From positions 23,861,955-23,925,954 of the forward strand of contig NC_019866.2 in assembly GCF_002234675.1 (NCBI RefSeq): a stretch of 64,000 nt of DNA, written 5' to 3'. The notes beneath the pieces were generated by a model that saw nothing but the letters and a program-made list of their open reading frames with translations, ran no database searches and was not told where the DNA came from. Source of the DNA: Oryzias latipes. Taxonomy: Eukaryota > Chordata > Actinopteri > Beloniformes > Adrianichthyidae. Below, piece by piece: positions 3,629 to 63,999 of this stretch. The stretch's first letter is position 1; the number at the start of each line of letters is the position of its first letter. The position numbers and the translations under genes are program-made.

Positions 3629-4273
3629 AGGCCCGTACACACCGGGACGAATATTCGCCAGCGTTTTTCGCCACGTTTTTTGTGTTCACACCCAGGCGAT
3701 TTTCGCTGACGATGAGCCGAGCGAACATGCAATTTCATTCCCTGACATTAGATGGCGCTTAATGTAAACAGAAATACTCCTGTACACAAGGTGGCGCTGC
3801 GCAACTTTAGGCTTCTTAAAGTCGCTTTTCACTCAGAAGAAGAGAGCAAGTATTTACGCGCTTGTCAGAATCATACAAAGAAAACATGAATATTTCAAGC
3901 ATCGAGGATATTTTAGAATGTCCGTCATTATTTCTTCGCGGCAGTGTAGACGCTACTTGACGTCTATCTTCTTCGCTGGTATGTGTGCTCAGCAAGGCAG
4001 TTTTGTGTTTGAGCGCCCCCAAGTTGTGTTTTACTGTAACTTCAGAAGCTCCAGACACGTGTGCAAAAGCGCCATTCTCATTGGTCGAATAGATTTCGAC
4101 GCGACGCGTCGGAAAGAAAAACGAACCCGAGGCGTTTTTTTTTTTTGACGCTTTGACGCGTGGCGTTTTTTCGCGTCGGTGTGCACACTCACATTGGTGC
4201 CCTTTGTTTAGCCACGAGGCGATAAACGTCAGCGAAAATCGCCGGCGAAATTCGTCCCGGTGTGAACGGGCCT
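3629..4273. mobile_element. Harbinger-like MITE with TAA target duplication
   Basis: The ends are inverted: the left end reads AGGCCCGTACACACCGGGAC and the right end is the complement of AGGCCCGTTCACACCGGGAC. A TAA trinucleotide flanks each side (3,626-3,628 and 4,274-4,276), which fits the 3-bp TWA duplications of PIF/Harbinger elements. The interior is rich in CGCC/GGCG motifs that form further imperfect palindromes. It has no transposase. Confidence 0.75.
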
Positions 4274-4276
4274 TAA

Positions 4277-6077
4277 GGAATGTCACAAAAGCTGAATTGG
4301 TCTTTTTTTTAACCTGTTCATTTATCTAGGATTTGTAATTTACTTTTTTTGAAACATCTTTATGTTGTAAAACATAAGAAGTGAAGGACTGAGAACGAAG
4401 CGAAATGACAATATAGATGACCTCTGACCGTCCACTCTGTCAGCCAATCGGCAGCTCTTTGCTTTAAAGATCTGCACCAATCTGTGGAGCCCAGGAGGCA
4501 CCTGAGGATGAGAGGCCTGACTTGGGCCGGTCTCCATGGTAACAGCATCCTTGCCAGAGGAGCTCTTTCCTTCGTTTTCACGTCCCTCCCGTCCACTCGA
4601 GCCTCCTGCGCTGTTTTTCTTCTCGCTGTCTCTCGCCAGCCTTCACATTGTCACTCTCCTCTTTTCCTGCCGTCCTCCTCCTCCTGCTCCTCCTTCTCCA
4701 CACAGATCTGTATTTCAGTCATTCTGTGTGAAGAGGAAAGATATTTATATCCTCAGCCTCGACTGCTTAGGCCTCTTCCAGAAAGGTGTTAAAACTGTCT
4801 GTAAGCCGTGTGCCAGTATACTCTAATACTATCGTCTTTGTCCCTTTTCCCCAGAAAGACAAAAGTCAAAGGACCAAATCATATTGGGCTAATTTGCAGG
4901 GTATCTATGGTGATAAAGTCTTTTGAACACTTTGTCTTGTCTCACCTTAAAGCAATTATTCTGGATGTAGTGCAGTTTGATAAAAAAAGAAGCCAACAGA
5001 TCTATTGATTATGCTGTTGACCTGAACTGTCATTTCATCCTCCCTCATCCTGTCCCACACAGAGACTGTCTAACACCATAATTCCAGCCCTGCTCCCAGA
5101 AAAAGGCCTCCATGCTTTATGTGCCTGAGTCGCATACAGGTGGATCCCATACGTCCTGACAGTTGTTCATGAAGCTGTGGAAACATGTCTGTGACCCCTG
5201 GACGATCAGGAATCTCCACCAGGCTTCATCCTCTCACCGCTGCAATCCTCTCCGTTCACCAACAGCTGCACGTCTGGACAGCTGACTGTCAAACACCTGA
5301 TGAAAGCATCCTCATCATCTGCATCTTGGATGGACAGAAGCCAGCCTATACAAAAAAGAGATAGACCATCTGAATTCAGGGTGCAGTTTAAGCAGCATGG
5401 AGCTCAGTTATTTTTAGAACGTTGTTGGGTATTATGTATTTTGACAGTTTGTTCAAATACAAAAGCAAAATATCTTTAAACGGCCTTTTCTTATTGTGCT
5501 CCAATGAAAACCATCCAATTTTATCCAATCCTGAGAACAATTAAAATGTGATTTCATCCCTACAGGAATTACTCAACAGCTGAAGGATGGATCAGCCGTT
5601 TGCCCCACTGACCAGTTAAATGTTTGATAATTTCATGGACTGGTCTGTATCAGGCTGAAGTTGGAGCCACAGTTTATTAGCTTTCACTTTGACAATTAAG
5701 AGAAAAGTTAAAGCCAAATCTATTAATCCCTTCAAAATTGGTCCTACAGAAGATGAAGATGCAGCAAAACAAAGTTGCCTGTTTGTGAAATGTGTTTTTT
5801 GATTTGAGAGAACCCATTCAAGGCAATATTAAAGGGTTGGGTTTTTTTTTCCTAAGAAAAACGAAAACACCAAGAAACTAAAACACTAAAACACCCAGTT
5901 AAATATAAAAACATAATTGGGTAAAGATTGAATTAAAATGATCAACACGTAAAACCTTAAATTTCTTTTTCCAACTAAAACAAATGTGTAAACCTGTCTG
6001 AATTGGTCATTAAATTGTTTTTTGACCACAACTTAAACTTCAAATCAATCACTGCAGCTTTTCTGTATTTGAATCTC
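4277..6077. other. Intergenic sequence, nothing recognised
   Basis: I see no conserved coding segment, RNA gene or clear repeat boundary here. The sequence has a pyrimidine-rich patch near 4,560-4,720 and is otherwise AT-rich. Confidence 0.4.
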
Positions 6078-7910: not shown

Positions 7911-8029
7911 GGAAATACAGAATTTAGACACGGGTTGAAATTAGTATAAGATTATTGATAAATGATTATTACATTATACGATGCCATATAATATTAGACA
8001 ATGACTGCAGCAAAAACTTTCTAGGAGTT

Positions 8030-8604
8030 TGAGTGGCTCTACAAGAAATCCCGCATTCGGCGCGGTCCTTAAACGCAACACAGAGAGGAAGAAAGGCGCG
8101 TCTGTCTCCCTGACTTTCTCTCTCTCAGTTTTCGTCGAATCTATTTTTAGCTCAGCAGACTGGTCACGTGGCAGGATGACGTCGGTAATGTTGTTGTCGG
8201 TAGAGTGCGCGAGCGCGGAGGAGGGGCAGAGACTGTCAACATGGAGGTGTTGAAGCTCCCGCCTTTCAGCTGCAGCTTCTCCTGAAGCCCGGAGGCCGTC
8301 TGCGGGGGCCGTCAGCGGGCCTTGGGAGGGGGGACACGCCGACCCCTGGGTGGACAGCGAGCCCCGGCCGCTCTCAGGGGCCGACGGGAGTTCACCTCAA
8401 CCTCGCCGACATCCACGCCACAGAAAGCACCGTGACGCAGAGAGGAGCGCGCGCGGGTGTGCGCGCGCGCAGGACTACTGCGAATGCGTGCGTGTCGCCT
8501 GTGTTCCTACAGAGTGGCGTTTGTGCCGTCGAGCCGCTGACGTCATCTCTACGACCCGCGTCCTCTCCCGGAACGTTGGAGTGTCCTCGTGGCCGGACCG
8601 ACAG
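8030..8604 (+). promoter_or_regulatory. hdac5: CpG-rich distal promoter and 5' leader, probably of hdac5
   Basis: The sequence changes abruptly from AT-rich to GC- and CpG-rich and holds a cluster of promoter elements. These are a perfect MEF2 consensus CTATTTTTAG at 8,141-8,150, an E-box CACGTG at 8,165-8,170, and a CRE-like TGACGTCG at 8,177-8,184. The start site is probably shortly after these. A 14-codon upstream reading frame (ATG 8,241, stop ending 8,285) lies in the putative leader. Assignment to hdac5 rests on the exon at 8,605-8,632 having the correct phase for the 21,747 acceptor. An unseen divergent gene to the left cannot be excluded. Confidence 0.65.
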
Positions 8605-8632
8605 ATGCTGACAGCTGACCACCTGGAGACGG
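8605..8632 (+). CDS. hdac5: Candidate distal first coding exon of hdac5
   Basis: The first ATG in this frame opens a 9-codon segment, MLTADHLET, plus one base before a GT donor (CGG|GTAACT at 8,633). The one leftover base is exactly what the acceptor at 21,741-21,746 needs. Joining gives ...[14 protein letters not shown]..., which has the same shape as the start of other class IIa deacetylases, where a short variable peptide precedes a DG motif and a (Q/S)-L-(E/Q)-L-L motif. The resulting protein would be 1111 residues. The ATG context is weak (C at -3). This exon is inferred, not proven, and could instead be an untranslated exon. Confidence 0.5.
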
Positions 8633-10096
8633 GTAACTAACGCCGTTTGACCGGGACTTCACCGGCTTTAGTCTGCGGCCGGTTAGTGGGACTGGAACCG
8701 GTCCAGGCTGCATCTGTTCCAGGGGCGCTACAGCAGAGCGGGCACGGAGGGGCCCCCAAGTAAAGTGGTCTCTCCGGCTTGAGGTCCCCTTCACCTGTCC
8801 TGGGTGCTAATTAGTGGATTTGAATGAGCGATCCTCTAAAAACCTTCAGATTCATAAAAATGTCTTTTGCATCTTTATAAATAGCAAGCTGCTTTGCGTA
8901 AATGCACGTGTGTTCTCTGCCTCCTTTGATCCTTCAAAGGGCCATGGCAATGAGAGATGGACCTTTGTACTCACGTTACCGTGTCTTCATGCTTTACCGA
9001 GGGGATGCTGACAGAGGAGAAACATCAGCTCAGACAGGACAATTAACTTAGGAAATCTTTACTATTGTGAGTTCTGGGTGTTTCGTAGCGTCCAAATTCT
9101 CTGGAATTGCTCCAGAAACCAGCTAGTATTATTTAGTATTATTTCACAGAGAAATACATTGCTGTGTTTCGTATTGTAGACTTATCTTTACTGCGTGTCA
9201 CAGACCATCACTCCTTCGGTTCTGGCTCTGATGCTGCATTCACCCCAAGCATGTCATGCGGAAATTCTGGAATGCGGGTATAGTCCATAGTGTTCACACT
9301 GGACAAGCAAGAAGGGGATTCTTGTTCTTCTTCTACTGTTTACTAGCGCATGTCCGCCACCTACAGTTAAGATGCTTTGTGTGAAACGTTAAAGCAGAGC
9401 AAAGCTCACAAATCTGCCTCCAGGCTTTTTCTTTTCCAGATCTATTCTGATATATATCGGTGTCATAGAATTCCGGCTGGACACAAATCGCAATGATGAA
9501 TTTCTCCTCCATGATCAACTTTTAAGTGGTTGGCACGTCTGTGAAACCGTCCCAACGTCATCACCAGATCCGAGTCCCTGATTGGTTCGACCTGGTTTAG
9601 CTTGTAATGCACGTGGGGCCCGGAAACTGACTCTTCATTGGAAGTGTCTACTTGAACGTGCGTTTCCGAGGGTGGTGTGAGCGTAGCTTTAGCCTCATAG
9701 GATTGCAGTATAATAATTATAGTATATTTACCAAATCTCTGTAGTTACTCAAAGTTCTATCTTAATAACGCAACTTGCTGAAGGTAAAACCAAACACAAT
9801 GATGCTCAACTGTATGTTCACATCAGCTTCTATGAGTTTTTATTTTTTGCCACCGAACGACACTTTTTGTTGTGTAAATCGTTGAGTTGTCTCACGCTCA
9901 GTTCTCAGTTCATATGAGCGCCAACACAAAAGTGGTTCGGCACCAGATCTCACATCAGCACCTCATGTTGCAGCTGGAGGTTCGGGCGGCTGAAGGGTGG
10001 TCGGTTCTGTCACTGCAGACAGATTTTCCTCTCTTTTTTTCAGCTTGTTTCATTCTTACCTGTCTTCATTTCACTGCACAAAACCTGACGTGGCCG

Positions 10097-10610
10097 TAGT
10101 CACAGCTGCCCTTACGAGTGGATATGTGGCGTTTGCGGTGGCCCGCCTGAAATATCCAGGGTTGTAGAGCGCTCTGGGAGCCCATTGAGAAAAAAATATT
10201 TCTGCACATTTTTTCCTGTGGACATGTTGCGAGTGACAGGTCGTAGTGAACACCGATACAACATTTGAGAGGAAGTAGGGGGAAATAGGTAAAACACAGG
10301 TATGTTCTGTTGGTGTCCTATGAATGTCTGATAAGAACTGTAGTACGGTGGAGGGACACCTAACCACAGCATCACCGTACGTCACAAGTGTGTGCAACTT
10401 TTATCATCCTTAACGTCTTGATACATTTACAACATGCACAGCAATGGTATGTTTCATTTTCAATACATCCCTGGAGGTGGTCGCACGAGCCTCAAAAGAA
10501 CTGCAAGACACCCGTGATCCTTTTAGGACCCTCTACGGTCCTGGAAAACCGAAACCCCACAGCCCTCGTACAGGTCAACCCTCCGTATGGGTGCGTGTGA
10601 CCGAGGTTTA
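10097..10610 (+). repeat. Unclassified dispersed repeat, copy 1
   Basis: It shares several blocks with 31,307-31,995. Examples are the opening TAGTCACAGCTGCCCTTACG, the GGACATGTTGCGAGTGACAG block, and the closing region from TTCATTTTCAATACATCCCT to CGTATGGGTGCG. I do not recognise the family and see no coding capacity. Confidence 0.55.
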
Positions 10611-10940
10611 AACTAGATTTGTCAGGTACGTCTAAGTTTGAATCAAACAAGCTGTTTAAAAACAGCCCTTTAATGTCTAAGGGATGTTGATTGAAGTGAA
10701 GTTGCGTCTAAACGGCTTATTGAAACTAATCAGCTCACGTGAGATAAAGAGAAACCAGAGCCGTCTGCTCTGCGTCTTCTGATCTGGGGCAGAAGGTTGG
10801 TGGTGAAAAGTGGACACTTCACCGTTATCTCAGCTTTGAAGCTCACCACAGAGAAAACAAAACCAAGACAAGAAGTGGATTGTTTCACGGATTAGTGAAA
10901 AAGAAAAGGTCTTGAAGATGTGAGACAGACTCTGACAACT

Positions 10941-11236
10941 GTGGGGTTGCACAAAGGTGTAGTGCTTACCCCACGGTGAGAAGACCCTGGTTCGAATCCT
11001 GGATGGATCTTTCTGTGGGTTTGGTTTGTTCCAGAGCACTCCCGCTTCCACAGTCCTGAAGTAGGATTCAAAGGTTGATTTGTGACTAAATAGTTTCTTA
11101 AGTGTGTCTGTGTGTGGCGATGGATTGTCCACTTGCTAAGGATGTGCCTTACCTTCGCCCTACGGTAGCTGGGATGGACGTCAGTAACCCCTGTGACTCT
11201 GCACAGGACAAAGTGGGTTTAGAAGCTGGATGGACA
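10941..11236 (+). repeat. tRNA-derived SINE, degraded
   Basis: A clear RNA polymerase III B box, GGTTCGAATCC, lies at 10,989-10,999. The 3' part reads GTAGCTGGGATGGA and then CCCTGTGACTCTGCACAGGA, ending in GGGTTTAGAAGCTGGATGGA, which is a typical fish SINE/LINE tail. It does not fold as an intact tRNA. Confidence 0.7.
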
Positions 11237-11757
11237 AACTGCTGTGAAATCACAGATCTGCTATCAACACATGAACACTCCTCACACAACAAAGTGAGTA
11301 GTTCTAAATGGGTTCTACTTATTTGTCCATTGAGTTGACCAGAACTTTAAATGGGTACTGTGAGAGCTGAAGAGCAGAAACTTGACACATGCTAAGTAGG
11401 CCTGGGCGAAAAATCGATTGAATGAATTAATTCGAATTTTTTATTCCGGGTGATTTCAAAAATAACTAAGTCAAGTTTTTATGTGGCGGGTTTTTGGCTC
11501 CCCAGAGCTTCCGTAGCGCTAGTTTTACACGGCAGTATGGCACGCGACAAACAACAACCTTTCCTAAGAAAGGAATAAAATCATCTGTTGTTTGGACCTG
11601 GTACGGGTTTACTGCCACAGACGTGGAGGAAGAGACCCCCCCCCCCCCCCCACGCTGCAACATTTGCCTAAAGCCCATCGCAGTCAAAGGCAGCAGCACC
11701 ACAAACCTATTCCAACACCTGGGGGAAACCTGTTATACTGTTCTCCTTCCCTCCGTA

Positions 11758-12121
11758 ACACCACTCACTCACTCACTCACTCACTCACTCACTCACTCAC
11801 TCACTCACTCACTCACTCACTCACTCACTCACTCACTCACTCACTCACTCACTCACTCACTCACTCACTCACTCACTCACTCACTCACTCACTCACTCAC
11901 TCACTCACTCACTCACTCACTCACTCACTTAATCACTCACTCACTCACTCACTTAATCACTCACTCACTCACTCACTCACTCACTCACTCACTCACTCAC
12001 TCACTCACTCACTCACTCACTCACTCACTCACTCACTCACTCACTCACTCACTCACTTAATCACTCACTCACTCACTCACTTAATCACTCACTCACTCAC
12101 TCACTCACTCACTCACTCACT
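11758..12121 (+). repeat. (ACTC)n microsatellite, about 360 bp
   Basis: Tetranucleotide ACTC/TCAC repeats extend for about 360 bases, interrupted by TTAATCACTCAC variants at about 11,929, 11,952, 12,057 and 12,080. The interruptions recur in the same spacing, which suggests duplication of a longer block inside the array. Both forward frames read Ser-Leu-Thr-His repeats, which is an effect of the repeat and not a protein. Confidence 0.95.
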
Positions 12122-12165
12122 CTTGCGCGGCACGCGCTCATTCCTCTTTCACACGCTGCGTGCTG

Positions 12166-12196
<31 letters not shown>

Positions 12197-12743
12197 ACAA
12201 CACCTATATAGTTAGTTCATTAGTTAGTTAGTAGTTATTTGTTACTGTTATTTGTTAATAAAGAATACTGGGATGTAATTATGAATTGTATTTATTTGCC
12301 GCTGGGGGATTTTGTGTTCGGCGGGGAGGGCGGGGGGGTATGACCACGACTCCTGCTGCGTCATCACCGCGGTCAAAAATCCCACACCGTCACAGCTCTG
12401 GTTTATATCTTGTCGGACAAAAAAAAAAGCGACTTCTCCGGTACCGATAGCAGAACCGTTGAGGTCAGATCTTAACAACACTGCGGTCTTGAAGAATGTT
12501 GCCCCGGGGCTCGTTCAATACCGGGGCTCAGTACTCATCCTTAGGAAAGGGGCACGGTGGAGAACAATCACCGAAGCGGTCGCTTTGCATATAGCCAAAG
12601 ACATGGTACCCTTATATACCGTGGAGAAGACGGGGTTTATAAATTTATTTAAAACCTTAGACCCCAGATATGAGCTGTATTGTTAATCCTTTAGAAAATG
12701 GTGTTATTCTCAAGGTGAATGTTTGTCTCCTTTTAGTCTAGAA

Positions 12744-13126
12744 CAGTGTTTTTCAACCTTTTTGGAGCCACGGCACACTTTAACCTTGACAAAAGTCCCG
12801 CGGCACACCAGCATCCAAAGAAAAAAAAAAAGAAACTCATAGTCTGTATTGATGTACAGCCCCTTCGCAATCTCACTTGCATTTTTGTGATAATTGTGGC
12901 AGAAAAAGCTGGAAGTTGCAGCTGTTTTTTTTTCTAAAAGATGTGATAAAAATTAAGTTTTAAAAACTGTTTGATGTGTGTTCGTTGTGATTTCAAGACA
13001 TTTAACATCGAAGACTCATTGTGCGCTGAGACACTGTCACTTTTAACCCAATGCATCATGGGTTAAAAGCCTGACCATCTCCCATGGCACACTAGTGTGC
13101 CGCGGCACACTGGTTGAAAAACACTG
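12744..13126. mobile_element. hAT MITE nested in the hAT relic
   Basis: The ends are CAGTGTTTTTCAACC and GGTTGAAAAACACTG, a perfect inverted pair typical of hAT/Charlie-like MITEs. The flanking 8-mers GTCTAGAA and GTCTAGAC agree at 7 of 8 positions. The sub-terminal parts repeat CGGCACAC-type motifs. It has no coding capacity. Its position inside the larger relic makes it the younger insertion. Confidence 0.9.
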
Positions 13127-13969
13127 GTCTAGACTACAAAGTGTGACATAAAACACAGCTGGGACTTTGATTCCAAGAGTGTGTTCATTTATATATTATT
13201 CATCCCAGAAATGGGGGTTACATTTGTCTTGCGTTTGATTAAATAAAAGCAAAATCTGCTTTAAGTTGTCTGCCGTTTCTACTTATTGCTTTCCTTAAGT
13301 GGGGGTGGTGGCGGTGGGGTGGTGGCGGTGGGGTGGGGGATTGGGTAAAAATCAGAAATCGAATAAGAAAAATAAAATCTGAGATTTTATTTATTTCAAC
13401 GATTGTGTCCAAATGTTTACATGCACAACTAAAAGAAAATAAAATCAGGAATTTTTATTTTTAGGTCATGTCGCCCAGCCCTAATGCTAAACTAAATGTT
13501 ACTACCGTAATAGTTGTCTTGAGCAGCCGACACTCGTGCCATTTTTTCTGTGCAAATAAATGTCGTTTGTTCCTAAAATCCTGTTCATTTGGTTGATGTC
13601 CTTGGCCTGCTTGTGGAGGTGTGCCAGGGTGAGTGCTAAACTTGATAGAGGACGTTCGGATGTAGCTTACATAACACCCTGTGTCATGTTTCAATACCTC
13701 CAAATGGCTCGGCTAAGAATCATAACATAAACAAGGCAGACCATAGTGGAAAATAGTAGTTTCAGTTCTGAAAACCTCCTTTTTTTTCCAGCTCCTTCAT
13801 TTCATGTTGGGCAGTGAACCAATAAAACAGAGAGCATACTGCCACCTGATGTATGGGGAGTAACCATTTGCGTTTAGGACCAGGATCTTTGCAGTCTATG
13901 TAAGCCCCAGACAGAAAAAGGTTGGGCTTGGGGAACAACCATGATCAACATTGATTGATTGGTATTGGT

Positions 13970-14466
13970 GGACCATTGACTGTATATGAGAACTGGACTG
14001 AGTGAGTGTGACGTCACGCATAGAAAAGGACTATTCGCAATGTTGGTACCAGAAATTGTCAATACGCAGTGATCGGTCTTAGTCAAGATTTCTATGGCAA
14101 CCTCTCTCACCAATTAGGTGGGAACCTGTTGAAAGGTCACACCCCTACCATTTGAAAGCGATGTACATGAAATCTGACAATCAAATCCTTTGAATGAGGC
14201 CACATACACATTGGAGGCATCTGATTGGTCAGGATTCGAAGGAATGACTTACACTACAGAAAAATAAAAAGAGGACTTTCAAGAAGATGTTTAAAAGTAT
14301 CAGATCCAGAAGGGTTCTTCTGACCAATAGAATGAGTAACAGCTGTTTATTTCTCTATAGAATTCTGTGGGATTTTGGCTTCTTGGAGCCACTGGCTACT
14401 TCCTGTTTGGAATGCGAGGGGCGGAGGGGTCACTCAATCCAGTTCTTATATACGATCAATGAGGTA
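13970..14466. mobile_element. MITE with ~32-bp imperfect inverted ends
   Basis: The left end reads CATTGACTGTATATGAGAAC and continues TGGACTGAGTGA; the right end, reverse-complemented, reads CATTGATCGTATATAAGAAC and continues similarly. The right-hand 190 bp recurs at about 49,230-49,425 with high similarity, including TTCTTCTGACCAATAGAATG. It has no coding capacity. Confidence 0.7.
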
Positions 14467-16061
14467 GACCCTAAGCTTCTCTGAGACAGCCTGTCATCTA
14501 AGCTTATGTAAACGGTAACGGCGGGGCGACATCTTTAGGGAGGTTTTGGTCCCCAGTCTCTTCGGCTGTGTTTTCTGTCACACGGATGCTCCACGGAGTC
14601 CCCAGCATGTTCCATGTGTCGTGTGAGGTGCCCTGTGTTCCTCACAGCGTCCCAGGGAGTTGTGCTGTAGGAGGTGTCGGTCCCGTGGATCCTGCAGCGC
14701 TGATGCAGTCTGTTCCCCGTCTTTGTTATTTCCGTCACATCAGGCGGCTGGCACGGGCGTGCCAGCGTGGCAGCCCAGACCATCAACGGTCCAAACGGTT
14801 GTGGATCAGGTTTTTTTTTGTTTTCTTCTACAGATCCAGATGATTAAAGTAAAGCCACCAGAAAGAAGTCATGTTGAAAGTTTGCGGGCTGAACAGACAG
14901 ACCGTGTCTGCGACCAAAAGGTGCAGCAGGAACGGCTGAATGCGGCTTTTGTGAAAAAAGCTGCATGTGATGGAGAAATGCAGCGGACACCATCCGTTAT
15001 GTAAGGACAGCTGTGTGTGTGTGTTTGTGTACATGTGTGTACATGAGAGCGCGCCTGTCAACTGTTTATGTGTGCACGCGTGTGGCGTTTTTGTAGCCGT
15101 GCGTGCACCTGTGCAGCTGGGCTCTCCATCTTCTCTCGCGCTGTTTGCTTTTTGGAGGAGGCGTCCAGGTGAATGGTTACCACGGCAGCCAGACCACCAG
15201 TTGCTAGGCAGCACTTCCTGCTCCTTTTTCACAGAGGGAGGGGGCAGGTATTTTGGGAAACACTGGAGTGAAGAGGAGGTGGCAGAGAGGTAGAAACCCA
15301 TGAAGTGAGAGGAAAGAGGCCGATTTGGATTTTGTCAGCGCGTGATACGGCTTGGTTCTGTGCTATTTTCAAAAAAGCCCTCTGCCCCCCCCCCCCCCCA
15401 TAAGCCGCGTTAGTGTCCATGCCATTAGGCTAATGGATCAGCTGGCTGGCAGGTTAGTGTCTCAAAGCTAGTTAGCCTCTTAATCTCAGAGCATACATAC
15501 ACACACAAACACACACACAGCAATTTGTTCCAGGTTTAAGATTAAGGGGTCATATTTTTCAGTCAAAGTTGCTGTGAAATGTTTTTGCATGCTAATCTAA
15601 CCAAAACTGAGCTTTGGGGTCATGTGACACTGTGGCCTCATTAACGTTAATGGTGATGTCCCAAAAGTCACAGCTGTACTTGTCTGTTTTCTCTACGAAG
15701 ATGCACTTTTCCAGTCCGTTCAGCTTAAAATAGATGCATCGTCAGCGTTTTTTCCTTTCAGTTTGTTTCTCAGCAACTTTTAATGGCAGATGTGAGGTCG
15801 ATGCATCATACACAGACCGCTCCGTCAGTTATGTACCATCATGTCCTGTTTAATATTTGTGCTGTCGTACCATTAATTTTGTGTGTGATTAATTCATTAT
15901 AAATTGGAATTAATTTATTTTCAATCTCACGTAATAGTTGCTGTGAAAAGCCTCATTTTGAGGTATTTTCATCTAGATTTGTATGTATGTTGATCAGTAA
16001 AGGTCAACATACAATTTAAAAAGTGACTTAGTGAAGATTTCATTATTGACATTTGAGAATA

Positions 16062-17100
16062 AAACGACTGGGCACATTTGGTTTGTTTAAAGGGAACCAT
16101 AGCTTGTTTCCCCCCAATATTCTGAAACAAATATTCAGTCTGAATAGACCAAAGCGGACCCTGGTCCGGGACCAGGACCCATCGTCTCAGGTGGTCTCAG
16201 TTTCGTTTCAAATTGGACTGCGCTTCGGTTTGCTCCCTCAGTCTGAAAAGGCACCATGCTTGGAGCATAACAACAACAAAACGGCCAACGTAGAGTTGCT
16301 TTGCCCTGCCCTCATAATTCCTGGCCAATGACTAAAGAGATCTTTAGTCAGGTGGTCAGGATAGTCCGCCGGACGGCAGACTGAATACAGACCAAACACA
16401 AGGTTCAAGACTCGGTCCGGATCAAATGATTTTGTTGGACTGAAAGAATCGTATAGTCTGAATACTGGAAATACATATTTTTATGTACAGACAATAAAAA
16501 ATTATAATTCTAAATGTCTTTACCAAGATCAGGTACAACACTTTTTACTTAAGTAAGGCGGAGGCGTGCTGCAAGGCCGTTCCTGAGGAGGCGACAGCTA
16601 AGAAGGTACACTAATAAGTGTTAATGACCTGTAGACTGTCAGAAAAAACGATGTTAGAAGGAATATGTATCACATTAAGAGTTGTTTTATTGAGCCTGCA
16701 TTCAACAGACCAGATTTCAATGAGTTGCTGTGTCTCATCGTTGCTCCACTACTTTTTCACATCACATGACGACTGGCTACGGTGGTGAAATTTAGGTTGT
16801 GTTCAGACGGGACACATTTGGTCCGCATAAAGTGAACCAGAGTTTGTTTCCCCTAATAATCCAGAACAAATTTCCAGCCTGAATGAACCCTAGGGTTCGG
16901 GACCTGGACCTGCTCTCTGACCCATCTTTTAAGGTGATCTCTGTTCGTTTCCAAGCTTCGGTTCGCTCTGAGATCCCTCAGTCTGAATACAATCCGTCCT
17001 CAGAGCAGAGCAACTGAACCAAAACGGCCACCGTAGCCGACGTAAACAGAGTAGGAATGTAGCAACAAATGGACAGAAAAAAGCGTCTGACTGTTTATTT
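16062..17100. repeat. Two ~280-bp related copies in direct orientation
   Basis: 16,062-16,350 and 16,800-17,100 share a series of blocks: GGGCACATTTGGT/GGGACACATTTGGT, CTTGTTTCCCC/GTTTGTTTCCCC, CAGTCTGAATAGACC/CAGCCTGAATGAACC, and TCGGTTTGCTCCCTCAGTCTGAA/TCGGTTCGCTCTGAG...CTCAGTCTGAA. They look like two fragments of one dispersed element inserted in the hdac5 first intron. The intervening 450 bp shows no gene. Confidence 0.6.
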
Positions 17101-17344
17101 ATCAGAGCTGAAAACGCTTTGTACATGCTTTCTTATCTTGAGGAACAATTGACTGATCCACTGACTGATCAGTAGGTAGAGGCTGGTCCCCATGTTATCC
17201 TACCTTTCAATGTAACTATTGTCAGGCCCTGTTATTCTGTTACAATACAGCTATGTCACCATACTGTTTGTTTCTCTGATGTGCCAACATCATCTTATTA
17301 TACCCACTCACATGCTCGCCTTCCAAGGTTAACCCAAGGCTAGC

Positions 17345-17560
17345 CTTAGCGAATCACCTGCCTCCACCTGTGCCTCTCCTCCTCACTCACTCTAACCGCC
17401 CTCATGTCCTCCATCACTATACCCGTGAACCTCCTCTTTGGTCTTTTTTTTAGGCCTCTATCCTGGTAGCTCCGACCTCAGCATCCTTTTACCGACATCA
17501 TCACTGTTCCTCCTGTCAACGTGTCCAAACCGTCTCCATCTGCTTCCCTGCATTTATGTC
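17345..17560 (-). pseudogene. LINE 3'-end fragment
   Basis: The minus strand translates to pieces such as RRFGHVDRRN and RPKRRFTGIVMEDM, separated by a stop. This resembles the C-terminal end of the reverse transcriptase ORF of RTE/jockey-type LINEs (FGHV...GRPK.RF..V..ED). It is a short, dead 5'-truncated copy. Confidence 0.6.
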
Positions 17561-17999
17561 CCGACCATCTACCGTTCGTCTGATGGATTCGTTCCTAAAC
17601 CTGTCCATCCTGGTCTCTCTGCTCCGTCTGCGTGTTTAGCAGGTTCGGTGTCAGCAAGCTTCAGGCAGTCCGTTTCGTCTCTAAGCATTCACTTTTATCA
17701 TGACAAAAGGAGGCTCTGGCCACGCCTCATTTGACAGCAGCATGCAGGAATAGATTAGGAGGAAACTGAACAGCATCGGGCCCCTGAGGTGCTCCAGAGG
17801 TACTGACCATGTCCTCAGGCACAATTCTTCAGCCTAACCAAGTGTTTCCTGTTGTCAAGGAGTCGTATCTAATATGTTCTGGGGACTCTGTATGGAAAGG
17901 TTTTGTTTGAACACTTGTATTTGGGGATGATGATGGATCTTTTTGAAAAACCTTTGAGTGAGAAAGATGATGATGTTGAGGCTGAAGAAGATGGTGGTT

Positions 18000-18150
18000 C
18001 TGATTGAACATCTGTAACTGATGGAGCTGAACATCTGTAAGTATCAACGATGATGCAGTGGAACATCTGTAACTATGGATGATGACGAAGGAGGTTGAAC
18101 ACCTGTAACTGAAGATGATGATGATGATGATGAAGAAGATGAGCATCTTT
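18000..18150 (+). repeat. Degenerate GAACATCTGTAACTG/GAT repeats
   Basis: Four spaced copies of GAACATCTGTAA or a close variant lie at about 18,005-18,112, interleaved with GATGATGA tracts, ending in a pure (GAT)n run. It is tandem, non-coding sequence in the first hdac5 intron. Confidence 0.7.
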
Positions 18151-19721
18151 TATTTCCTCTACTTTGAAAATTTAATCTATTTTATGGACATCCTGGTCAT
18201 CACAATCACCACAGAAACAGCAGATGTTTCTTAAAAAACTGCTTACAAGGTCAGCACTAAAAATAAATAAATGCCCAAAGACAACATGGGGGGGGGGGGG
18301 GGTCAGCAGGTCAGGGGGGTCTGATGATGAGCTGATAGGATAACAGGCCAACAGCTCTGAAGTTGAACTTCCATCCGTGGATTACTAGGGCTTGGTGTCA
18401 AAATTGGATGATATCCTTTTTGTTATTCTTTACTCTCTGTTACATTACATTATAATGGAGGAGCTTAACAGTAGCCTTATATTCTTTTTTGTAAATAATT
18501 AACATTATAATCCACTTAGAAGCTCAAAACATTGATGTGGCATGATATAGGCCCTTTAACACTTTTTCCATGTGACATTGATGGTCAAAAGAACTGCAGA
18601 TATGAAGAATTGTTCACCTTTTTTTTTTAACGCCCCTGTTGTCATTACAAGTGACCCCTGTGCCGTTGCTGTGGTGACCCCTGATGGGACATGCCGAAAG
18701 GTGAACAACATATTAAACTCTGATGTCTCCTGACCAGCCAAAACAAAGCTCCAAGCACGTTTGGCATTTTGACTGGAGTCTATTCTGTCAACTTCAGCGC
18801 CCTAAAAAATTGGCAGTTGGGTGAGGCAAAGTAAAGTGAGTTTAGTTGAGTTAATAAAAGCAAAATAGAACAAAAAAAGACTGCATAGATGTTTATTTTA
18901 TGGTGTAAAGTTGGTCCTTTTAACATGGGAGTCACTAAGTGCTTCCTTTTGAAACCAGCCTCCGGTGGTCATTTGCGGAGCTGCAGCCTTTGCCACTTCC
19001 TGGTTGGCTTTATATTTAAGAATGAAAGTTGTGGATCCGTATTTCTCTTCTGTTTGGGTTGGATCAGTGGACCCAATGCACAAAGCACGTGACTGCAGGT
19101 AAATGTCTGTAGCGTGCACGCTCATGGTAAATCTATGCTCAAAGAACACCTGCAAACGTGAGTTATTTTTGAATCAAACTTTATCAGATCTGGTACACAA
19201 AGAACCGCGACAAAACATTCCCTCAACCACAAAGTGACGCATCTGCAGGATCTGCCTGGAGCTCCTGTTTGCAGCTGTGAGCAGTCAGACGGCTTTTTTA
19301 GATTCTGTGCCGCCTCCTCTCCTTTGACCGGGACGTTTTCCAGAGAGAGGAAGAGGAGGTCAGAGGAAGAGGAGGTGTGTGGATTTTTACTGCATTCAGA
19401 CGTAGCAGCAGTTTTAAGAGTGGAGTAGGATGATGCTTGTGACACCTGCTGGTGTCCTGGAAAGTAAGGAATCTGAAAATCTGCAGGAAAATGACTGGAA
19501 GGGTAATTCTAGCCAAGTAAAATCAGTTTTTAATGAAATGGAGAATTAGAAGGTCTCTCAAAGCTTCATGCAGCTGGAGGTCCTTCAGATCTTCGTCCCA
19601 CTGACTAGCTGACAGTCTATAATGCGGTTGTCATGGTTACAGTTATAGTACACAAACGCAGCAGTGTAACTCCAGGGGTGGATGCGTCTGGAATAGAAAT
19701 GCAGAGATGAGTCATCCGCTG

Positions 19722-19722
19722 C

Positions 19723-19766
<44 letters not shown>

Positions 19767-19788
19767 TGCATGCATGCATGCATGCCTA
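19722..19788 (+). repeat. (CA)n followed by (GCAT)n microsatellite
   Basis: An uninterrupted CA run passes directly into ACGCATGCATGCATGCATGC. Both parts are alternating purine-pyrimidine and could adopt Z-DNA. Confidence 0.9.
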
Positions 19789-19811
19789 CACAAAAACACA
19801 CACATATACAT

Positions 19812-19885
19812 CAGAGCGGTTGCTTTGTGTCTCCACCTTCAGACTGGGAGGTTGTAGGTTCAAATCCTTGGTTAGATTATTAAAA
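19812..19885 (+). repeat. tRNA-derived SINE head
   Basis: Contains a B-box-like GGTTCAAATCC at 19,857-19,867 preceded by GCGGTTGC...CCACCTTCAGACTGGGAGGTTGTA. It is too diverged and lacks the acceptor-stem pairing of a functional tRNA gene. Confidence 0.5.
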
Positions 19886-20016
19886 ATCTGGTTTTCGTTT
19901 TCGGCCGTGACTGCAGCTCAATGCTTCCCCCCAAGACACACCCGGGTCTGTGACAACTCGACCCGAACGCACACAAATGCATGCATGCACACCTGTTTGA
20001 CGTGTGGGACACTGTT

Positions 20017-20428
20017 TTAAAGTCTCACTCTGATCAGCTTTTGATCTGTTTTTCAAAGTGTTTGTTTTTTTTAAATTATGATGATGATGTATTTAGCCAA
20101 AATAAAAAAAAAAAAAACAGTTTTTGTTTTGGGTTTTTAGGACATAGTTTGTGCAGAGCCGCAGGAGTTTAACAGAAATTCACCTCTGAGTCGTGGAGCG
20201 TCCAGTTCTGATCCAGATTCCAGCTCAGACGAGGAAAAACAAACACGTTCATGGATCTGTTTGTCTGCAGGCGGATGCATCAGAATGGAGCGGAGCAGGG
20301 AGCTTATGGTTTCCAACAGCCTTTTCTTATTCTGCTCACAATGATTTGAATAAAGAAAAACTCGAAACCAGAATGTTTCTACATCATCAGGAAAATGCCA
20401 CAAGAAGACGTTAAAAACATGGGCTTAA
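20017..20428 (+). mobile_element. TTAA-flanked MITE copy, 3'-shortened
   Basis: Begins TTAAAGTCTCACTCTGATC, includes the GGACATAGTTTGTGCAGAGC and ACGTTCATGGATCTGTTTGT blocks of the family, and ends near a TTAA at 20,425-20,428. The terminal inverted repeat on the right is lost. Confidence 0.65.
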
Positions 20429-20839
20429 TGCTGTGTGTGTTTGAGACGATGACATGTTTGACCATCAGGTAAACTGAATTCTGGATGTGGTTCTGACAGT
20501 CTGGACTTGAAGTTGTTGGATGTTTGACGGTCGTCTTCTCAGGGAGGTTCAGAAGTGTCGGTTCTCCTTGGTTCTGCGTCAAACCCTCCCCGTGGAACAT
20601 CTGTCAGCCCTGCTCCTCCAGACCCTGTCTTCCGGGTTTTGATTGGACCAGGTGTGTATGTTAGTGTTTGTTCTGGTGAGTCTCGGCAGACCCATGGCAT
20701 TCGTGGAGCCCCGCCCACTCCGCTTGGATTGGTAGAGGATCTTGTAGAGATGCGGGGCAGAAAACCCTCCGCCCCCACGTCTCAGTCACACCCCAGCGCT
20801 GCAGGGTTTTTGTGTGCTCGCTGTGTCTCTCTCTCTCTC

Positions 20840-21700
20840 TCTTCCCTGGTCTATTTTTGTCTTTGGCTCCTCCCCCTCACTAACGAGCTATTTTAAAATT
20901 CAACCCCCGCATCCCCACAATGCCACAGCAGCCAAGAAGTAAAAGAGTACGTCTTCTGACACTCTGAAATCAGAAGGTTTGTTGTCGGCGTCCCTCCTCC
21001 CTCCCTCCCTGTGCTTCATTCAGCTCCCCCCCCCCGTCAGTGAGGGTGGTGCTGAACCGCCCGCAGCTCCTGGTTGCAGTCGGAGCTTCTCTGTCGGAGC
21101 GGCGGCTGGAGGATGGAGGGCTGTTGCTGAAGTCCCACTCGTCTCCCTCTCCTGTCATTCTCCCAGCTCTTTGTTCTAATTTTGGAAACATGGAACCTCG
21201 GAGAGCGCTCTCCCAAAGCTATTTTCGTCCTTGCTCCTCCTCCTCCTCTCCCCCTTCTCCTCCTCTCCCCCTTGTTTTTCGGGAGAACAGGACTCTCTAG
21301 CTCCGTTTCTTGGTCGCGCGGCAGAGAGTCCGTCTTTGCTGCTGCCGGTTGGGAATTTTTTTTGCTTGTTTGTGGAACTGCAACTTTCCTCCTGCGGCTG
21401 AAGCGGCTTCCTGAACGCACCGCTGCAGGTCCGCCTCTCAGGAGCCAGATTTGTGCCAGGATCAGGGTGATCCATGCTCTTACCTCAGAGAGGACTTCCT
21501 GGAAGCGCGGGATAGGAGGATTTGTCTCAGGTGATGGTGACCGGCGCCAGAGCCTGCGGCTTGGGAGCTGTCACAGCGTTGCAGGCTGCTCAGTCCCAAG
21601 TCGGCGTGATGGGGTCTCTGTGAAGGGGTGCTTCCTGAACTGTAGCAGCGGCTCTTGTCCTGGCACGCGGCTGCAGCCGCCCGTGTCAGGACTGTGCGCC
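20840..21700 (+). promoter_or_regulatory. hdac5: Proximal GC-rich promoter/leader of hdac5
   Basis: This is a CpG-rich, pyrimidine-rich stretch directly upstream of the MLQTIYE start codon. It is preceded by two MEF2-like A/T motifs that deviate from consensus (CTATTTTTGT near 20,849 and CTATTTTAAA near 20,888). The frame of the hdac5 start codon is open upstream to about 21,182 but contains no ATG before 21,701. An independent promoter here would explain the proximal first exon. This is an inference from composition and from the conserved start peptide. Confidence 0.5.
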
Positions 21701-21815
21701 ATGTTGCAGACCATCTATGAGACGGATTCTTGCTTTTCCTCTGCAGACGGCCGCCAGCAGCCTCTGCAGCTCCTGAGTGGCAAACAGGGCTCCAGCGCAG
21801 CCATGCCCATCGCTG
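21701..21815 (+). CDS. hdac5: hdac5 proximal first coding exon (MLQTIYE form)
   Basis: Encodes 38 residues plus one base and ends at CGCTG|GTGAGT. The first seven residues, MLQTIYE, are the same as in the HDAC9 first exon, so this is an old class IIa alternative start. The stretch encoding CFSSA (21,729-21,746) doubles as a strong polypyrimidine tract plus acceptor, TGCTTTTCCTCTGCAG. Transcripts arriving from the distal promoter could enter at 21,747. The ATG has a purine at -3 (GCCATG). Confidence 0.85.
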
Positions 21816-24800
21816 GTGAGTCATCTGTGGGGAAGCGAGGAGGGGAGGGGGTGTTAATAAATAATTTAGGCTGTCTGTAAGAGAAGAAACCCTTTTTCTT
21901 TGTGTCCATGGAGGACGGGCTGGCGCTGGAGTGCAGGGAAAGTTTCTGGTTGAAGTGAGCGGGACTCATGAGGGAGGCTGCAGCTGCAGATGGAGGTCAG
22001 GGCTGCTGGTCGGTGGGGCGGAGAACCAGCTTCAGGTGGTGGAGTCTGCAGGAATGCAGCATGTTTTTGGATGCACCAGCATGTCAGTGTGGGGAGGAGT
22101 TTGAAATCAGACAACAGACCGACCGGCTGTTTGTTTGTAAACAACAGTGGGGGGAGGCGGGGTTCGATCTGGATCTGTTTGATCTTCTGGAAAGGAAAGG
22201 GAAAGTATGAAATCAGGAAGGGAGGAAGGTCAGATTCAGTCTGATGCTCCATGCCAGGAGTCACCGACCCTCTTCCTCGTCGGCCACCGCCACGTTTGTT
22301 TTGCATCTTCAGGCTCACCTGATCAGGTGAGCCTGAAGATGCAAAACAAACGTGGCGGCTGACAGGGCTGGTAAACCCTGATCCACGCCAAAGCTTGGTG
22401 CTTCCTCCGCTGTGTTGATGAGGACAGGGTCTTCTTCACTTCACTAGTTTTCTTTTGTGCAGTAGCGTTTGGCGTCACGGTCTCTGTGTGTGTCTTGGGT
22501 CTGGAAAGGGACCGGGTTGTTATTCCTTTGTGTTTGGATCTCTGATTGGTTCCTAGAAAACTCAAATGGTGGTTTGCATGTTGGGAACCGCCTGTTGGTA
22601 TCAACTGGTGGTCTGTGGCTCCTCCCACTGCACCATCAGCACCTCTGCAGGTTTTTTTTATCCTCAACGAGATGAGTTGACATCCTTTCTTTGTGCGTTT
22701 TTCCCCCCTTTTGTGCAAATGTTACATTAGATATACCCAGTGAGCCGAATCAGGTTGGAACATTTGCAGTGCATCTCACTGGGTTTCCGTGTTTCTGCTG
22801 GTTGTGTGGCTCCTTGAAACATCCATGCTTGTTAACTGGTGGTTTGTCAGTAAAATACATTGGATTAAAGGTTCAAAGTTGTTGTGAAAAACTGGAGCTT
22901 TAAAGGGTACAAACAACAGGAAGCATTTAGAGATGCAGGATATTCTGACGAAGACAGCGGGGGTCTCTGGAGCGTCGAAGGCCCCTCAGACTTCTTCTAC
23001 GGTCACAATCAGTCCAGCGGGGGTCACAAAGGTCGAGTCACAGTTCCGTGACTCGTCTCTGAACTTGTGCAATGACAGAAGAGGTTCATCTTTGTCATTA
23101 GCAGTTGTGGATGATCTGGATGAAGTTCCTGCAGAGGCCAACAGGATTCTCAGCTGTGGAAAGTCTCTTCTTCAGGGTGAAGTGCAGCTGCATCAAACGT
23201 CCTTCGTGGTGAATCCTGCTCTCATGCCTCTTATGCCTTATTGTTGAGGGTCTTACAGGTGGGGCGGGACTGCTGCTCTGTCAGAGGAGCTGCTGCTCGG
23301 AGGGGTCTGGTCGGCACATACATTATTGGTCCATCAGACACTTGATGAAGACTTTAATTCTGAAAAATGAAATAGAAAAATCAAAAGCTGCATTACAGAT
23401 TCCATTCTTTTGTTAAATTTGATATTTATTTCTTATTAGTTCTTTAAATCCATAGTTAGTTTGGGTAGAAAACAATTTGATCAGATAAAGTAAATCCTTA
23501 ATTTGCTTTACATCACTAGTTATGAGAAACCTCTTTTTGATTTCTCTACAAAAATGGTTTTAGATGGAAAAATGAAGAAAGGAAATTAATTTTAATAGAA
23601 TCGGAAGATGAGCTTTTTAAGACCAAACCTAACGAATTTATAATTAACTTTAAAGTCTCTCTCCGCTCATCTTTTCCGTCCCCAGTGGTCTTTTAATTGG
23701 GATGATCCTGTTTTTAGGCAAAAGCCAAAAACCCGTGTTGTTTTCTAGGACGTAGTTTCTGCAGAGCGGCAGGCGCTCATTAGAAATTCACCTCTGACCT
23801 GTGGGCGGGACCATTTGCAGGGGCGGAGCAGTGGACTTGTGGCCTGTTAGCGTAGTTTCTATGTTCCACATACGGGCCTTTTATTTTGGTCTTTGGGTCA
23901 TTTTGGGGTCTTTAACGGAAAGGCTCTGTGAAAACAGTCATCCTGTCCCTGTTGGGGTCACGGGGCTGCTGGAGCCTATCCTGGCCACGTGCGGGTGAAG
24001 GCAGGGGACGTCCTGGACAGGTCGCCAGTCTGTCGCAGGGCCCTGTGAAAACAAATGTTTACATGTCAACCAACACATGCTTGGAAACGTTCTCATGTGG
24101 AATCTCCATAGAATTCCAATATTGGACCTCCGTGTATTTTACCCGCTGATGATGATAAAGCTCTTCATAAATCTGTGAGTGTAGACGATAATGTCCTCGT
24201 TGGAGGTAACAATCAAAAAAAGTGACGTTTCTGCAGGGAGTCAGTAGATCGATGGGACAGCAGCTGGAGCCGGCCCTCAGTAGCTGAACGCAGCTGCGTG
24301 CCAGCACCCTTCTCTTCACGTTTAATCCTGACTGAAGAGTCCGCACAGGCGTGAAGGTTGGTTCTGTGCAGCGCCGTCACCAAGCAGCGAGCGCCTGGCT
24401 CGGCCGCCTCTCTGAGCATGTGTTTACCGGGCTATAAATGTCCCCGTTTGACGTCAGACGCTGGCTGCCGAGGAATGCTGCCCGCTCTCCAAACACACTC
24501 CTGTGCACACGCTCGCACCGCAGACGCACACACACTCCGTAGGTGTGTGAGTGGGAGCGGGGGGGGCATGTGCGTCACTGAGAAACGCCGCAATGTTTGC
24601 TCAGGTAATTCAAATGTGAGTAGCTGCACACTGGAAGAAACACACATGTGTTTGTGCGCTGATGGGGGGCCCAGAAGCAGCTGTGCTCGGCGCGGCCCCC
24701 TCAGAGAGGCTCTGTCCGAGCAGCTCGCAGAGGTCGGGGGTCAGCCTTTTCTCTTAGTCACTCCTAATTGACTTTGTAAGAAAACGAGATCCTTCCCTCT

Positions 24801-27800
24801 AAGCACGCTGCAGAGCCGAGCTGTTTCCAGGAAGTAGACTAATCCCATCACCTGATTCCAAGGAGGTGTTTCAGCTCCACTGCAGGCTTGGACCACCCCC
24901 CATCCATCATCCTGACCTGGTGACCTCTGGGTGCCATCCGCTGTCTAACCCACAGAGGTTTGTGAAGCAGCTGATGGGAACCATCCAATCACAGCGAGGG
25001 GTTTATTGGCTGTCAGAGAAGTGCTGCTGTTGCACTGATACTTCCACCCAAATGAAGCCCATGCCGTCGTCGATGATGGTTGCTGTCAGTGAGTCATATT
25101 CCACTGCTTGTGTTTTCCGGTGGATGACAACAATGTACCGACTCATAACAAGTCTGGAAGTGGGCGCCGCGTCACGGCCGAGGACCAGAAATGCGGTATA
25201 ACTGCAAGAGCTCCAAATAAAACTTTTGCCTGGTTTGGCAACGTTGGTGCTTGGACCCATGTCAATCCACCACTTGGGACATTGCTTTAGAAACCTTAGT
25301 GGTCAACTGACCAAAACTTTTCTTTAGTATAAAAAATGTTGGCTTTTATTTTTACTTAAAAAATTACATTTAAGATCAGATGGAGCGTAAAACTTAAATT
25401 AAAAGGTTGTAAATGAACCATGAGGCCTGGATAGGTATAGCAACTAACAACTGCCGTGTCTTTTTGGGTCACGTCATGTGATGCCATAGCAGGTGTGTGG
25501 AAGAGGGTAAAACTCTGTGGTTACCAAAAGGACTGTTTACATCGGGCTGATTTGAAGCTGGTTTCTTAGCTACGCCATCATTTAAGCTGAATTTGAAGTA
25601 ATCACCCTCTAACGCTTCTTGCTGCTGGTTATTCGGTTCACGAGGAGAAAGCCGAGTCAGCAAATCAGCAGAAAGCACTCCAGGTAGAACTGGGAAATGA
25701 TAGCGGCGTAACCATTCATTTTTACGACAGCTTGATTCATATCATAATTTGTGGTTAAAGATACGATTTACTGTGAATTTAGGTTCGTTTTAAATGATCC
25801 GATTCTCGGACCTAAAGTGGATCCAGATCATCTTGATCCCAAACTTCCAGCAGTGAGAACAGTCCACTACTGAACAGTTATCCAGATTCTTGGATTTCTT
25901 CCAGATCATCAAGTTAAATGAAATCTGTGTCCAAACCAACAAGTAAACTAGAATGAATGTCAAATCCATTCACATGTTAGTTTCCTAAAGTTCACCACTG
26001 TTGTTTTTCCTCATCCAAAGAATCCAAAGGGAACATTCTTAGAACATTCTAGACACTGGATGGTCACATGACTTTAGTCAAAGTCTGTCCACACATTGGA
26101 CTGTAATGATGGATGATCCGTGTTCATTATGTCATCACGTGTTTGTTGTCCGCGGCGATGCACTTATAGTATGATAAACCTGCCGTGTCTCAATCCAAAT
26201 GGTATTTTCCAGAAAAGATTATCGATTTATTTATCTTGGAAGGGTTTTTTAAGGGTATTAGGTCGGTTTGATTTGATTAACAAGTTGCCTCAAACAGATC
26301 AATCTGGTTGGTTGGATCGTAGGAATAGAAATCGATTCATTGATTAATTGTTGGAACCCCAGCGGACACACAAACACACAGAGTTCTTACAGATTCTTAG
26401 GGGTTTGGACTTCCAACAAGCTCCCTCTTGATTGGCTAACGTTGTTATAGAGCTATAAACTCAGGACCAATCACTGTTTACTGACGTTGTCTGTGTCCAA
26501 CATGGTGGCGTCCATATTGTGAAAATATGTCCACAGAATTGCAGTGGAACTGGAAGGACGCCATTTTCTGCGGGTGACATCACACTGGCTCGGTCCACTT
26601 TTCATATACAGCCCATGCTCTGAATGCATCCAGAGTCCGTGTAGGGGTCCAATTAGGCCAGAGTCTGGTCGTATTGAGAAGCGCACACTATATGACATTG
26701 AAATAATTGTGTCTCTGCTATGAGGAACAAATTCAGGAAGAAGTTTTTTTTTTCCTGCAGTGGCAGAGGTGAAGAGTGGCCTCCAGTCAGGCATGCAAAG
26801 CCCAGCAGCAGCAAGCAGTGAGCAGAGAGGAGGAGCTACAGAAGGAGGTGAGCAGCTTGACTCCGCCCTCCCAACTCAACATGTGCAGTTTATCGTTTGT
26901 GTTTGGAAACCGTGGTTGGAGGTCCCGGAGGTGGAAGCTGATGCAAAGTTCCCACAGCGGTTCTGCGTCGGACCCGAAAACGCACGACTCTGACAAATTT
27001 AAGCAGAATTATGAAGCAATGTCCCTGCGTCCCTTAAGTTTATAAGGCAGATTTAGATGCGGCAGTTTCAGACCAGAAAAGGCAAAAACAAAAAAAAGGT
27101 TATGTTGAATGAAGGAGCAAAACAAAACTTCAAATGCAATCCAATGCAAAAAAAAACTTTCATTATATGGAAAAGCTCCTGAGTTAAAAAGAGAAAGCTA
27201 ACTTAGCTAAATTAGTACTGAATATGTTGGGAAATAAACCATCCAACCACTTTCAAAACCTGTATAATCCCTTTTGGGGTCACGGGGGGGCTGGATTCTA
27301 GCCCAGCTTGGTTAAAGTGGGGTTACCCCCTGGATGGTACGCCATTCTGTCACAGGGTCATGCGAAAAAAAGAGCTACAATAACAGCTGAAAACCTTTGA
27401 GAAAACTTTAAACAATAAATGTCAATAGTTTAAAAAGTAAATAAGTAGAGAAAAGGGGTCTTTGGTTAGTTTATTACCTAAACTGTACGTGCTCTCTTCT
27501 AACTCCAGCCTCCAGTGGTGATTTGAGGAACTGCAACATTTGGGACTTCTTGATTGGCTTCAGATTGGGGAACAAGGTGCTAGCTTGGTTAAAATCCTGT
27601 GAAATAGTTCATTTGAGAAGAAAAAACTAGACACATATTTTAAGATCTTTGCTGTTGTCTGATGGTCCAGCGATCGACAGCCCAGAGCTGTGGAGATGAC
27701 CCCGCCAACGGCTTTGTTTTTTGTTTTTTTTCAGGAGGCGGGCTTGCAGAAAGCTCTGGAACAGAAGGAGGCCCAGTAGACCTAAGGAACGAGCCTAGGG

Positions 27801-63185: not shown

Positions 63186-63999
63186 TTGTTATATTTTCTA
63201 TTACATTCATCAGGGCCAGTGATGTTGATCGATTTGACCTGAACCCATACTGTCCTTCGTCCAGTATCTTGTGCTTTTCGATGAAAGAGTTTAATCGGGT
63301 TATGAACATTTTTTCCAAAATCTTTGATAACTGCGGTAACATAGAAACTGGCCTATAGTTTGTGAAGTGATGCTTGTTCCCGGTTTTGTACAATGGTATA
63401 ACTTTTGCAATTTTCATTTGATTAGGAAATGAACCTGTTTGGAATGATAAATTGAAGATATATTCTAACGGTTTCAGAATTCCACTGATTACTGTTTTCA
63501 CCAAGGCCATATCAATGCCATTAACATCAGTAGAGAGTTTACCCTTCATTCCTCTCACGGTCTTTAATATTTCATTTTCAGTTACTGGGTTAAGAAACAT
63601 GCTACTGGGATTTCTGTCAATTAACATTTGCACATCCTTTCTAAATGTTCCTGGATCCGGGATTTGCTTTTCTAACTCAGGTCCCACGTTTACAAAGAAA
63701 TCATTAAATCTTTTAGCAATCTCTTCCCTTTGATCTATTTCTTCACTCTTACTAATAAAATACTTTGGATAGGAGTCTTCCTTGTTACCCTTTCTTAGAA
63801 TAGTATTAAGTATGCCCCATGTTTTCTTGATATTACTTTTGTTTTCCTCTAAAAGTTTTCCATAATATTCCTTCTTGCATGTTCTTATGATCTGCGTTAG
63901 CTTATTTTTGTATTTTTTATATTTAATTTCGGCCTCTTTTGTTCTCTTTTTTAAGTAGTTTTTATAAAGAGTATTCTTTTTCTTACATGCATTCTGTAG
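63142..63999 (-). pseudogene. LINE reverse transcriptase, N-terminal part, partial
   Basis: The frame is open from the window edge to 63,142. It holds the linker upstream of the fingers (KNKLTQIIRTCKKEYYGKLL, TWGILN), then PLYKTGNKHHFTNYRPVSML, LEKMFITRLNSFI and DEGQYGFRSNRST, the fingers region of non-LTR RTs. It ends in a stop shortly after the T7 run, where the next frame takes over. Confidence 0.85.

Follow-up and report, generated by a model that had tools for sequence, protein, structure and literature searches.

The hdac5 locus of medaka

The window, that is, the whole stretch of 64,000 nucleotides of Oryzias latipes DNA analysed here, carries an intact hdac5 gene on the + strand, with 28 coding exons between 21701 and 45293 and a TAG stop codon directly after 45293. 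The gene model was obtained by spliced alignment, at first with a human HDAC5 sequence as guide and afterwards with P0001, an Oryzias latipes protein named as a histone deacetylase. It is identical to P0001 at 1112 of the 1117 aligned positions; of the five mismatches, three are substitutions, and at the other two P0001 lacks the residue. This full-length coding match to annotated fish proteins places the gene in hdac5, a class IIa histone deacetylase, and most of the proteins P0002 to P0120 bear the name histone deacetylase 5 and have PF12203 and PF00850 among their listed domains. The identity of the gene, its + orientation and its MLQTIYE exon, as given in a preliminary description of this DNA, are thus borne out by the alignment to P0001, whose N-terminus is the same as that of the proximal exon product. 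The features considered below are the following:

8101 to 8700, + strand, distal promoter at a CpG island, with the presumed first exon (GC 0.63, CpG o/e 1.03)
8605 to 8632, + strand, MLTADHLET plus one base, a candidate coding start of the distal exon, of doubtful coding status
8633 to 8638, + strand, candidate distal donor GTAACT (2.2 bits)
20900 to 21700, + strand, presumed proximal promoter and 5' leader (GC-rich; CpG o/e 0.58 at 21001-21815)
21701 to 21815, + strand, proximal first coding exon, MLQTIYE... plus G, from the spliced model and the O. latipes P0001 N-terminus
21731 to 21746, + strand, TGCTTTTCCTCTGCAG, which codes for CFSSA and at the same time provides a polypyrimidine tract and an AG (7.8 bits)
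21747 to 21815, + strand, candidate 69-nt phase 1-1 cassette from the frame check, which splicing at the hidden acceptor would make an internal exon (donor 6.5 bits)
26761 to 26847, + strand, next coding exon (acceptor 9.4 bits), whose counterpart in other fish follows an MNSSH-type start directly
27735 to 45293, + strand, remaining 26 hdac5 coding exons, from spliced alignment to P0001

Elsewhere in the window, an ORF on the minus strand (50149-50685) matches the Pex2/Pex12 amino-terminal region (E 1.9e-33) and presumably represents a neighbouring peroxin gene, and a 386-codon ORF for a reverse transcriptase (RVT_1, E 1.6e-25) lies at 62028-63188, also on the minus strand.

A strong candidate acceptor within the first coding exon

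The proximal exon begins with an ATG at 21701 and ends at a donor (CTG/GTGAGT, cut after 21815) of 6.5 bits. Its MLQTIYE frame is open for 190 codons upstream of the ATG without any Met (window 21131-21814), and where most of the listed fish proteins have start residues upstream of MLQTIYE the window has RLQPPVSGLCA. A proximal promoter is presumed from the annotated starts. Just 3' of the exon, a perfect 36-nt inverted repeat without spacer occupies 22287-22358; it may be either a genuine palindrome or a foldback created in the assembly.

Inside this exon, the string at 21731-21746 that codes for CFSSA ends with an AG at 21745-21746, so that an exon spliced at this point would start at 21747. 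The acceptor string reported earlier at the CFSSA codons is indeed present in frame, but its length is 16 bases, not 18. When splice sites were scored with a simple vertebrate matrix, the acceptor at 21747 (7.8 bits) ranked 13th among the 4094 AGs of the + strand and first among the 280 AGs lying at least 17 nt inside coding exons, the second-best of which reaches 4.3 bits. It scores above 23 of the 27 modelled hdac5 acceptors and is the strongest candidate between 20901 and 21829, where the next one has 4.6 bits. The CFSS residues are inherently pyrimidine-rich, so the protein may force part of the tract. In synonymous recodings of the first 20 codons, which kept the amino acids and used the codon usage of the gene's draft model, an AG appeared at the 21747 site in 26% of the cases and the score was matched in 3.0%. 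The strength of the acceptor at 21747 thus exceeds chance, and the earlier claim of a strong acceptor within coding sequence holds by score, rank and synonymous recoding. No yUnAy branch-point match occurs in the 60 bases upstream of this acceptor.

The cassette that this acceptor would delimit (21747-21815) is symmetric, and the frame is kept whether it is included or skipped. Joining 8605-8632, 21747-21815 and 26761 gives a continuous reading frame, which agrees with the proposal that the nine codons plus one base of the distal frame fit the phase of the hidden acceptor; such phase agreement is by itself expected in 1 case in 3.

The distal CpG island and its short frame

The five most CpG-dense 500-base stretches of the window start at 8001-8401. 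The CpG island is clear at 8.1-8.7 kb (CpG o/e 1.03), confirming the CpG-rich region described 13 kb upstream of the MLQTIYE exon, whereas the proximal region is not an island (o/e 0.58). A distal promoter at 8.1-8.7 kb is supported by this island. A different composition was observed at 3701-4500, with a CpG o/e of 1.3 to 1.6 at a GC of about 0.45, unlike an ordinary CpG island. At the distal island, positions 8141-8150 carry CTATTTTTAG, a MEF2-type site. The window has 18 copies of the pattern YTAWWWWTAR, where shuffles lead one to expect 3.1. According to a passage of an HDAC9 review, MEF2D raises HDAC9 expression via the HDAC9 promoter (PMC7912504).

The short frame in the island has the reported structure: an ATG at 8605, nine codons (MLTADHLET) and a G ending at 8632, followed by GT. 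The donor at 8633 (2.2 bits) ranks 146th of 3933 and is equalled or exceeded by 20 of the 27 modelled hdac5 donors. A rival donor, GTTAGT, starts at 8682 and belongs to the same score class (2.4 bits versus 2.2); if the donor after 8681 were used, the distal exon would extend beyond the stop of the 8605 frame. In 26.6 kb of the + strand there are 19 frames that run open from an ATG as far as a phase-1 donor scoring at least 2 bits, or about 0.4 per 600 bases, and the one at 8605 is the sole such frame at 7.9-8.8 kb. The 8605 frame does not go beyond chance.

N-termini of fish HDAC5 proteins

A protein search with residues 1-140 of a draft hdac5 model gave 968 matches, of which the best 120 were compared; with this draft query the identities to the query are slightly low and the kinds of match are unaffected. 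The distal N-terminus was also used as a query, either with window sequence only, which returned 1 match (P0001, over 80% of the 45-residue region), or joined to the body of P0022, which returned 69 matches from 116 candidates. In all, 136 distinct proteins were compared among the matches listed. Because its query contained MLQTIYE, the ranking of the first list favours the MLQTIYE form; neither search with the distal N-terminus has this bias. Isoforms may sit folded in the clusters of the database, which are drawn at 90% identity (that of P0001 holds 20 sequences and that of P0022 holds 127), so that absence from the list is no proof.

MLQTIYE lies within the first 80 residues of 121 of the 136 listed proteins, most of which have an upstream start before it (e.g. 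MLLHPTVSGLCA or MLLRPTVPGLCA). Predictions from Scomber and turbot (P0026, P0031, P0042 and P0006) carry extra residues upstream of MLQTIYE, in the form of an MNSSHSS or MSSSHSS stretch. The 15 listed proteins without MLQTIYE comprise 13 with an MNSSH-type or MSSLHTS start and two that begin at a Met of the cassette. The former (P0123-P0129 and P0131-P0136) represent the commonest alternative N-terminus among the 136 listed proteins; they start with MNSSHTS, MNSSHPS, MNSSHAS, MNSSHTA or, in P0135, MSSLHTS, joined directly to the VEVK exon, the cassette being skipped. The latter are predicted isoforms from Halichoeres (P0122, MPTAVVEVK) and Anabas (P0130, MATAVVEVK), for which same-species isoforms (P0024, P0038) have MLQTIYE in frame upstream. 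They are compatible with transcripts carrying the cassette tail without the MLQ codon, via splicing or a start inside the exon, and do not prove them.

The peptide MLTADHLET was found in no protein, either in the database searches with the distal N-terminus or among the 136 listed proteins, and the suggestion that the distal exon is an alternative first coding exon with this peptide finds no support outside the window. MLQTIYE precedes the cassette tail in all 120 listed proteins in which this tail was recognised. None of the 136 joins another N-terminus to the cassette start, although such a form may be hidden by the clustering at 90% or by the cut-offs of the lists. As regards the acceptor expected of a hybrid first and internal exon, there is a strong motif at 21747 and the corresponding junction in 0 of 136 listed proteins. 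Between CFS and a LELL-like anchor, S, P, T or A precedes D or E in 118 of 121 proteins and in 38 of 40 distinct linkers, despite length changes; this conservation would allow a CAG acceptor at that place and, read at the protein level and without a tree, weakly supports one.

In the fish MNSSH-type isoforms the alternative N-terminus is distal, and the matching downstream exon in the window starts in phase 1. No MNSSH-type distal exon with a phase-1 donor was found in the window, nor does ATG AAY Ser Ser CAY occur in its first 30 kb. MLTADHLET itself was considered as a counterpart and discarded: its degenerate-codon alignment to the MNSSH-type exon scores 9, a value that 12 of the 53 ATG-donor pairs of the window with an open phase-1 frame attain, itself included, and a second profile alignment for MNSSH likeness gave nothing special near 8605. 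The best look-alike between the distal and proximal exons, MNTPHTT at 11271-11293, resembles MNSSHTS and has a donor (AAA/GTGAGT), but in phase 2, out of frame with 26761. Its score was equalled in 6 of 60 mononucleotide shuffles of 8001-26700 (0 of 60 with a nearby donor), and it is probably due to chance. The turbot P0006 leader, used as a probe for the distal exon, had its top + strand match at 24560, downstream of the proximal exon, with a score of 27.0 versus 24.8 for the best match on the - strand, and this match carries no meaning.

Discussion

Based on these observations, we lean towards the view that 21701-21815 is a hybrid first and internal exon of hdac5, whose use in medaka is predicted from sequence. 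Transcripts from the proximal promoter would read the whole exon as coding from its own ATG, while those from the promoter at the CpG island, 13 kb upstream, would splice into 21747 and include the cassette only, or alternatively skip it and continue at 26761. Such distal transcripts might begin their coding sequence with MLTADHLET at 8605, with the Met of the cassette or elsewhere. Human HDAC5 starts with MNSPNESDGMSGREPSLEILP (MNSPNESDG), HDAC4 with MSSQSHPDGLSGRDQ (MSSQSHPDG) and HDAC9 with MLQTIYESESCFSSDGVAGREQ, the last having an MLQTIYE...CFSSDG start. Human HDAC5 and HDAC4 diverge from the MLQTIYE...CFSSDG of HDAC9 at the D codon matching 21747, and their sequence from D on corresponds to the cassette; the human stretch between D and VEVK is about as long as the medaka cassette (23 codons). 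These human N-termini would fit inclusion because the divergence lies at the very D codon split by the acceptor. The fish predictions of MNSSH type would fit cassette skipping, and P0122 and P0130 would fit either inclusion behind a leader that lacks a usable start or transcription starting within the exon. A PDB search with the human HDAC5 N-terminus returned matches only beyond the cassette region.

Speaking against a hybrid exon, the acceptor at 26761 (9.4 bits) is stronger than that at 21747 (7.8 bits), none of the 136 listed proteins joins another N-terminus to the cassette start, and the 60 bases upstream of 21747 lack a yUnAy match. Distal transcripts might instead skip the exon, with the exon at the CpG island, or an additional 5' exon, joined directly to 26761 and the acceptor-like string being an unused by-product of coding CFSS; the 13 fish proteins that read an MNSSH-type or MSSLHTS start into the VEVK exon are in keeping with this, as are the score of 26761 and the fact that 8632 and 26761 join in frame. 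We nevertheless hold direct joining to be rather unlikely, given that so strong an acceptor is rare among synonymous recodings, that P0122 and P0130 start within the cassette and that human HDAC5 includes the cassette. The distal exon might also be a leader joined to an acceptor upstream of MLQTIYE (e.g. 21167, 4.6 bits), in which case both promoters would lead to the MLQTIYE protein. Acceptor-like sites do exist at 21024, 21041, 21167 and 21489, and the MNSSHSS or MSSSHSS stretch upstream of MLQTIYE in the Scomber and turbot predictions is in keeping with such a leader; these sites are, however, at least 3 bits weaker than 21747, which makes this arrangement improbable.

Beyond medaka, we tentatively consider, as possible rather than probable, that the CFSS(D) acceptor is an ancestral feature of class IIa HDACs that predates the HDAC5/HDAC9 split, one stretch being coding sequence for one promoter and splice site for another, and that lineages differ in inclusion versus skipping of the symmetric cassette. 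The acceptor is perhaps old, judging from the mammalian sequences and the weak protein-level trend (118 of 121 proteins). If the hybrid exon is used, promoter choice in hdac5 would set the N-terminus of a MEF2 co-repressor via a single dual-use stretch, on which selection for the protein and selection for splicing would act together. This would be a compact, testable case of a start and an internal exon sharing letters across paralogues. If it is unused, hdac5 would be a gene with ordinary alternative first exons and a cryptic site that looks strong.

Comparison with known systems

Among the paralogues, HDAC9 shares the MLQTIYE...CFSSDG start of the proximal hdac5 exon. The distal peptides of human HDAC5 and HDAC4 differ from MLTADHLET, and the medaka junction is a candidate only. 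The fish MNSSH-type isoforms resemble the proposed arrangement in having an alternative distal N-terminus, but skip the cassette.

No description of this hdac5 arrangement was found among the open-licence papers searched, and six class IIa N-terminal peptide strings gave no match there as text. The pertinent passages on zebrafish hdac4 (PMC3426487) and in the HDAC9 review (PMC7912504) give no N-terminal exon detail of use. The intragenic Hdac5 starts in mouse leukaemia, which are reported to truncate the protein (PMC9359700), are a different matter. Hybrid internal-terminal exons, which are first exons in some transcripts and internal in others, are described in passages of two papers that both cite Fiszbein and colleagues 2022 (PMC10256964, PMC10980011), with about 100,000 inter-tissue and 20,000 intra-tissue cases in human (PMC10256964). 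The likeness to the hdac5 exon lies in one exon serving as first or internal depending on the transcript. Unlike the hybrid exons described in those passages, the hdac5 case is predicted, and its acceptor lies within codons that are translated by the first-exon form. The hdac5 exon, if used, would thus be one more hybrid exon, with the added point of an acceptor inside translated codons.
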